Assembly (NCBI GenBank): GCA_002778465.1
Contig: PFBV01000005.1
Coordinates: 119,576-176,582, forward strand
Source: Candidatus Magasanikbacteria bacterium CG10_big_fil_rev_8_21_14_0_10_36_32
GTDB lineage: Bacteria > Patescibacteriota > Patescibacteriia > Magasanikbacterales > GWA2-37-8
Direction: 5' to 3'
DNA: 57,007 nucleotides
The notes under the pieces were generated by a model that was given only the letters and a program-made list of their open reading frames with translations, was not told where the DNA came from and did not search any database. Positions 53,025 through 53,415 of this stretch are shown here, one piece after another; the stretch's first letter is position 1, and every line of letters begins with the position of its first letter. A program made the translations under genes and the position numbers.

Positions 53025-53051
53025 AAAAAAGCCCCGCGTTTTACGCGGGGC
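53025..53051 (-). terminator. Rho-independent terminator; minus-strand T-run serves the 53106 smORF
   Basis: Minus strand GCCCCGCGTAAAACGCGGGGCTTTTTT. Confidence 0.88.
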
Positions 53052-53105
53052 GTTTATCTTGAGAGATCTTAACTCAAGGATTTTCTTGATAACCAGTAAT
53101 ATGGG

Positions 53106-53252
53106 TCAGTATAGTGACCAGTAGGGTAACCAGTAGGGCGACCAGTTTGTGACTAGTACATTAACCAGTTTGATGGTCATTACAGCGAACACGGTAATCA
53201 AGAGAATAATTATGATAACAAGCAGAAATGTCCAGAGAAATCTACCGACCAT
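53106..53252 (-). CDS. 48-aa putative small single-pass membrane protein, absent from ORF track
   Basis: Translation MVGRFLWTFLLVIIIILLITVFAVMTIKLVNVLVTNWSPYWLPYWSLY*. AGGAG 6 nt before the ATG, consensus promoter upstream, terminator downstream. Confidence 0.75.
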   Translation of the reverse strand: MVGRFLWTFLLVIIIILLITVFAVMTIKLVNVLVTNWSPYWLPYWSLY

Positions 53253-53386
53253 TTTTTACTCCTTTTTTGAGTCAATTTAATGGTTTTTATTGATTATTTA
53301 AAAAGCGCAATATTGTAAGCGAAGCTTGAAATTGTAGTATTACCCATATATTGGAAAATAAATTTTCCATCTATTCGCAATTTGCG

Positions 53387-53415
53387 ATTATAGCATATTT
53401 TGAGGCTTTTGTCAA
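53387..53415 (-). promoter_or_regulatory. Perfect consensus sigma70 promoter for the 53106 smORF
   Basis: Minus strand TTGACA (53415-53410), 17-nt spacer, TATAAT (53392-53387). Confidence 0.82.

Follow-up and report, generated by a model that had tools for sequence, protein, structure and literature searches.

The small open reading frame (smORF) considered here lies in a window of 57,007 nucleotides, the whole stretch of DNA that was analysed, taken from a Candidatus Magasanikbacteria genome of about 880 kb (6 contigs, 97% completeness), for which the genome-wide counts given below are based on searches and extracted stretches. The unit that carries the smORF is situated between a HIT gene and a TraG-like gene, which are separated here by 628 nt. 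In the genome G016, the HIT gene directly abuts the TraG-like gene; for this reason the unit was probably gained in its own lineage, the alternative offered by the sequence comparison being a loss in G016. Much of the window (positions 1-45221) is taken up by an extended series of genes of the glycosyltransferase, sugar-nucleotide and radical SAM kinds, a surface glycan island that also holds two thiamine-dependent enzymes and an aldolase/dehydrogenase pair; these genes were named by eye from their translations. The features of the unit and of its close surroundings are collected in Table 1.

Table 1. Features at the smORF locus, listed in the direction of smORF transcription and followed by two neighbouring features (positions of the window)
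Feature	Position	Strand	Remarks
Sigma70-type promoter TTGACAAAAGCCTCAAAATATGCTATAAT	53387..53415	-	TTGACA-17-TATAAT, 12/12; TG upstream of the -10 box
REP/MITE-like structured element, 75 nt	53312..53386	-	Separates the -10 box from boxA; E about 1e-15 with covariance model R1
boxA-like motif GCTTTTTAAAT, imperfect	53296..53306	-	Class consensus GTTCTTTNAAAA; aligned with 11 other leaders
Leader segment ATCAA..CCATTAAATTGRCTCAAAA	53264..53295	-	Homologous to L159 and L147 leaders
Shine-Dalgarno AGGAG	53259..53263	-	6 nt before ATG; 16S 3′ end GGATCACCTCCTTTCT
smORF, 48 codons	53106..53252	-	ATG at 53252; stop TGA
Intrinsic terminator GCCCCGCG-TAAAA-CGCGGGGC, then T6	53031..53051	-	9-bp GC-rich stem
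Second dispersed hairpin repeat TTATCAAGCGAAGTGAG..GATGATAA	52950..53025	-	3′ of the smORF terminator
Promoter-like site TTGATA-18-TATAGT	53086..53115	+	10/12; directed antisense into the smORF

A sequence-only reading of this DNA had claimed a hidden 48-aa ORF with a perfect TTGACA-N17-TATAAT promoter, an AGGAG located 6 nt before the ATG and a GC-rich hairpin with a T6 run after the stop codon, and each of these parts was recovered at its place. The promoter agrees with the consensus TTGACAAAANNNNNAAAATRTGCTATAAT shared by many strong promoters of the genome. The terminator hairpin, which begins 55 nt past the smORF stop, is bidirectional and may also be used by the convergent HIT gene. Its stem-loop is identical to that of another unit, L212, a match which by itself is weak, as short GC-rich hairpins can converge. 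The dispersed repeat located beyond the terminator has relatives elsewhere in the same genome and in the genomes G031, G020 and G040.

The translation of the smORF consists of one strongly hydrophobic membrane helix followed by an aromatic tail, NWSPYWLPYWSLY. The tail is encoded by 12-nt repeats, which are degenerate and run on beyond the stop codon. The GC content at codon positions 1, 2 and 3 is 0.38, 0.31 and 0.54 (shuffle p 0.02), the same pattern as in the class of units described below, and the third-position value (GC3) stands against 0.27 ± 0.05, with a maximum of 0.41, for the ordinary genes of the window. A Shine-Dalgarno sequence, by the rule used for the class, precedes only 1 of 52 such ordinary genes. 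When the proposed check for conservation was made, the protein had no homologue among 86 genomes of the order, GTDB contigs or viral contigs, and it matched no Pfam family. The strong Shine-Dalgarno sequence in a genome whose ordinary genes are almost without one, the class-like codon-position GC, the hydrophobic segment and a leader homologous to those of other units nevertheless support the earlier reading of an expressed small membrane protein. On these features of the sequence, it is likely that the smORF is expressed, that it encodes a small membrane protein with a single pass, and that it is a member of a genome-wide class of stand-alone units. That the gene is real is probable, and its small size is nothing unusual; what stands out, and is of more interest than the smORF alone, is the class, together with the element inserted in the leader.

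Exact TTGACA-N16..19-TATAAT promoters occur at 41 sites in the genome, compared with 3 for the reversed pattern. Downstream of them lie genes for tRNAs and for RNase P-like and other RNAs, as well as housekeeping genes and a separate group of short ORFs. A GTTCTTT-like, boxA-like motif follows 15 of the 41, with a few weak matches assigned by eye. An ORF led by a strong Shine-Dalgarno sequence is present after 14 of these 15 promoters and after 3 of the 26 without the motif (Fisher p 3e-7), and at least two of those three ORFs are spurious. This count on the 41 promoters is the fairer measure of the association, since the members of the class were partly recognised by their Shine-Dalgarno sequences. 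Because the exact sites so exceed the reversed control, and because promoters with the boxA-like motif precede such ORFs, the smORF promoter is more than a chance occurrence. Five further units (L252, L257, L260, L261, L263) were added by searching for TATAAT-N5-GTTCTTT and allowing one mismatch, so that at least 20 units built alike, the smORF included, are present in the genome. The claim that this smORF is the only one with a full set of expression signals thus stands within the window as far as it was examined and fails for the genome, which holds at least 19 similar units elsewhere. Neither this class nor the dispersed structured repeat in the leader formed part of the earlier reading.

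The units of the class share one order of parts: strong TTGACA/TATAAT promoter, boxA-like GYTCTTT, short leader, strong Shine-Dalgarno sequence, short GC-rich ORF and terminator. The smORF agrees with it in its 12/12 promoter and in the AGGAG followed by a short ORF with a GC3 of 0.54, the class as a whole ranging from 0.31 to 0.85 (mean about 0.57). The products are mostly membrane or secreted orphans. Homology searches of the cargo assigned families to a thioredoxin lipoprotein (L146) and a trypsin-like protease (L263), and a similar unit in a related genome, L009, carries a macro domain. Two class proteins, L143 and L260, are paralogous, with 46% identity over 138 aa and GC contents of 0.58 and 0.39. 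In the unit L137, boxA and a strong Shine-Dalgarno sequence are not followed by an ATG at the expected place, and the frame runs on as a cysteine-rich protein, possibly from a non-ATG start. The C-terminal region of the 245-aa class protein L261 (NITLCSGSR...DNLRSR) resembles a multi-copy family of CPR genomes and is a possible variable region. Similar units are found in related genomes (L010, L030, L017, L009, L062, L224). The pattern search across the order returned true members together with chance hits near the rate of the reversed control, and units outside the genome are for this reason left uncounted. A search of mostly open-access literature retrieved no description of such a class.

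In promoters without the repeat element, the boxA-like motif mostly lies exactly 5 nt past TATAAT. The smORF copy starts 5 nt past the ACAAT at the right end of the element; its position is thus that of the class, but it reads GCTTTTT in place of GYTCTTT. The class motif fits the boxA consensus GYTCTTTAANA, which is gamma-proteobacterial (PMC5725501) and is matched here by sequence alone, and the rRNA leader of the same genome carries the similar AAGTACTTTGACAAC. The motif may therefore be bound by NusB/S10, with GUUCUUUAAAA as the putative RNA site. A second GYTCTTT lies between the stop codon and the terminator in 9 of 19 units (L138, L145, L152, L159, L173, L212, L252, L257, L261), as against 0.7 ± 0.8 in shuffled sequence. 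No such copy is found in the 110 nt past the smORF stop, in keeping with a feature that is not universal in the class. From boxA to the Shine-Dalgarno sequence, the smORF leader aligns locally with that of L159 at a score of 26 (shuffled 9.6 ± 1.8, 0/3000) and with that of L147 at 21 (shuffled 8.9 ± 1.7, with no shuffle reaching 21). Both of these leaders precede unrelated membrane ORFs.

The element between the -10 box and the boxA-like motif folds into a hairpin with a tandem GA internal loop, followed by a small AAGC..GCTT hairpin, and has the right end CTTACAAT. Its hairpins covary at a level reached by 0 of 500 shuffles. The genome holds 11 strong copies, a part of them arranged in tandem, and the element is matched in 19 of the 86 genomes of the order; among named genomes, it is found in Candidatus Magasanikbacteria and in one record named Nealsonbacteria. 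The copies in relatives are mostly located away from promoters, beside CATAATT, a sequence which is often the reverse complement of a start-codon region; two copies lie at contig ends. The comparison of a filled site (L103, in G019) with an empty site (L014, in G012), which share the same promoter region in two species of one genus, shows the element inserted directly after TATAAT and itself ending in TATAAT. The same arrangement is seen inside the present genome when the smORF leader is set against the repeat-free leader of L159. The filled and empty sites point to a mobile element with a defined target. As seen from the smORF leader, from L103, L143, L145 and L092 and from the empty site L014, it inserts beside ATAAT, including -10 boxes, regenerates TATAAT at its right end and forms tandem copies.

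In 57 of 75 copies, two bases inside the element form the complement of the two that follow the flanking ATAAT, compared with 22 ± 3.6 in shuffles and 45 ± 2.3 in shuffles within genomes. As these bases are placed, in the promoter copies, at the boundary of the transcript or beyond it, a role at the DNA level, in target recognition or in hairpin closure, seems likelier than one in the RNA. A riboswitch-like function of the leader was rejected on the same complementarity and on the many copies located away from promoters, both of which favour a mobile element acting at the DNA level. An origin from IS200/IS605 or RAYT elements was likewise rejected: Y1_Tnp is found neither in this genome nor in most of the element-rich genomes, and none of the six Y1 loci examined has an element copy beside it. 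An integron attC site was dropped by reasoning, as the GTT..AAC core is wrongly arranged.

The conserved, covarying structure of the leader could also mean that the unit is a non-coding RNA, in which the leader (and the terminator) is the product and the ORF incidental, the more so as promoters of the same strong type drive the RNase P-like and other RNA genes. Since the structure is part of a dispersed element, found also away from promoters and antisense beside start codons, it is not specific to the unit; moreover, nearly all other leaders of the same anatomy precede ORFs led by a Shine-Dalgarno sequence, and the Rfam search of the region gave nothing near the gathering score. A non-coding RNA is therefore improbable. 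Equally improbable is a small hydrophobic peptide of the type I toxin kind under the control of an antisense RNA. The size of the peptide, its single strongly hydrophobic helix, the strong promoter and Shine-Dalgarno sequence and the orphan status would all suit such a toxin, and the promoter-like site on the plus strand faces antisense into the ORF. This one weak site is all that was found of an antisense RNA gene, but promoter-like sites of this sort arise by chance (14 against 9.6 ± 3.3 expected), no good plus-strand terminator precedes 53513, and the thioredoxin lipoprotein and the trypsin-like protease of the class are not toxins of this kind. Still less probable is that the ORF is what decay or truncation has left of a longer class protein, a reading to which the tail repeats running past the stop, the imperfect boxA copy and the missing 3′ boxA could point, but all the expression signals and the ATG are intact, and the in-frame reading beyond the TGA passes through the terminator, so that the stop cannot have moved far.

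Under the preferred reading of an expressed membrane protein gene, the sigma70 promoter would provide a high level of transcription. The boxA-like motif near the 5′ end of the RNA may let NusB/S10 bind the nascent transcript, as on rRNA, and the Shine-Dalgarno sequence would recruit ribosomes directly to the smORF, in contrast to the ordinary genes of the genome. The 48-aa peptide would then enter the cytoplasmic membrane through residues of about 5-26, with the aromatic tail at the interface, and may serve an accessory surface or membrane function. The insertion of the element beside the -10 box would have lengthened the 5′ leader by 75 nt and left the promoter intact.

A further step would be to regard the units as modular cassettes. 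Recombination at the GYTCTTTAA motifs on either side would exchange one ORF for another while the promoter and the terminator stay in place, and Magasanikbacteria would in this way maintain a varying repertoire of membrane and secreted proteins at high expression. This view is suggested by a promoter (and element start) that is identical in front of L130, L135, L138 and L143, four ORFs unrelated to one another, by the 3′ motif in about half of the units, and by a smORF leader and terminator shared with two different units; we regard it as a speculative and rather unlikely proposal.

What began as a doubtful smORF thus becomes a test case for a class of genes that the annotation of Patescibacteria misses or labels hypothetical: strongly signalled, compositionally foreign and mostly membrane or secreted ORFans, led by Shine-Dalgarno sequences where ordinary genes hardly use them. 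Genes of this kind are candidates for a part in how these ultrasmall bacteria interact with their hosts. A cheap means of finding them is the cis-signature of promoter, 5 nt, GYTCTTT and Shine-Dalgarno sequence, and the way in which their leaders change is illustrated by the promoter-targeting repeat.

Phage morons and bacterial genes for small membrane proteins are stand-alone, with their own promoter and terminator and an atypical GC content, and lie between conserved genes. The smORF unit is similar to the morons in all of these respects. Unlike them, the units of the class are chromosomal, scattered and built on one common leader architecture, and no phage genes were seen beside the smORF unit. 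In mRNAs recognised by the Nus complex, boxA lies near the Shine-Dalgarno sequence, and in the suhB leader it represses translation (PMC5725501). The class resembles such mRNAs in carrying a GYTCTTTAANA-like motif in the 5′ region, upstream of the Shine-Dalgarno sequence; it differs from them in that, across most of some 20 units, the motif keeps a distance of 5 nt from the -10 box or from the right end of the element, and often recurs 3′ of the ORF. The element shares with REP sequences, CGTC- and GTAG-tagged repeats and RAYT-type MITEs the character of a short, dispersed, intergenic palindrome with no adjoining dedicated transposase, and in most relatives the foot of its hairpin carries, like that of the CGTC-tagged repeats, a CGTC when the other strand is read (PMC3733652, PMC2817692). 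Unlike the REP/RAYT repeats (PMC3733652, PMC2817692), it is 75-79 nt long with two hairpins, ends in TATAAT, inserts beside ATAAT, carries internal bases complementary to its flank and has, in the present genome, a CGGC-like tag rather than CGTC.
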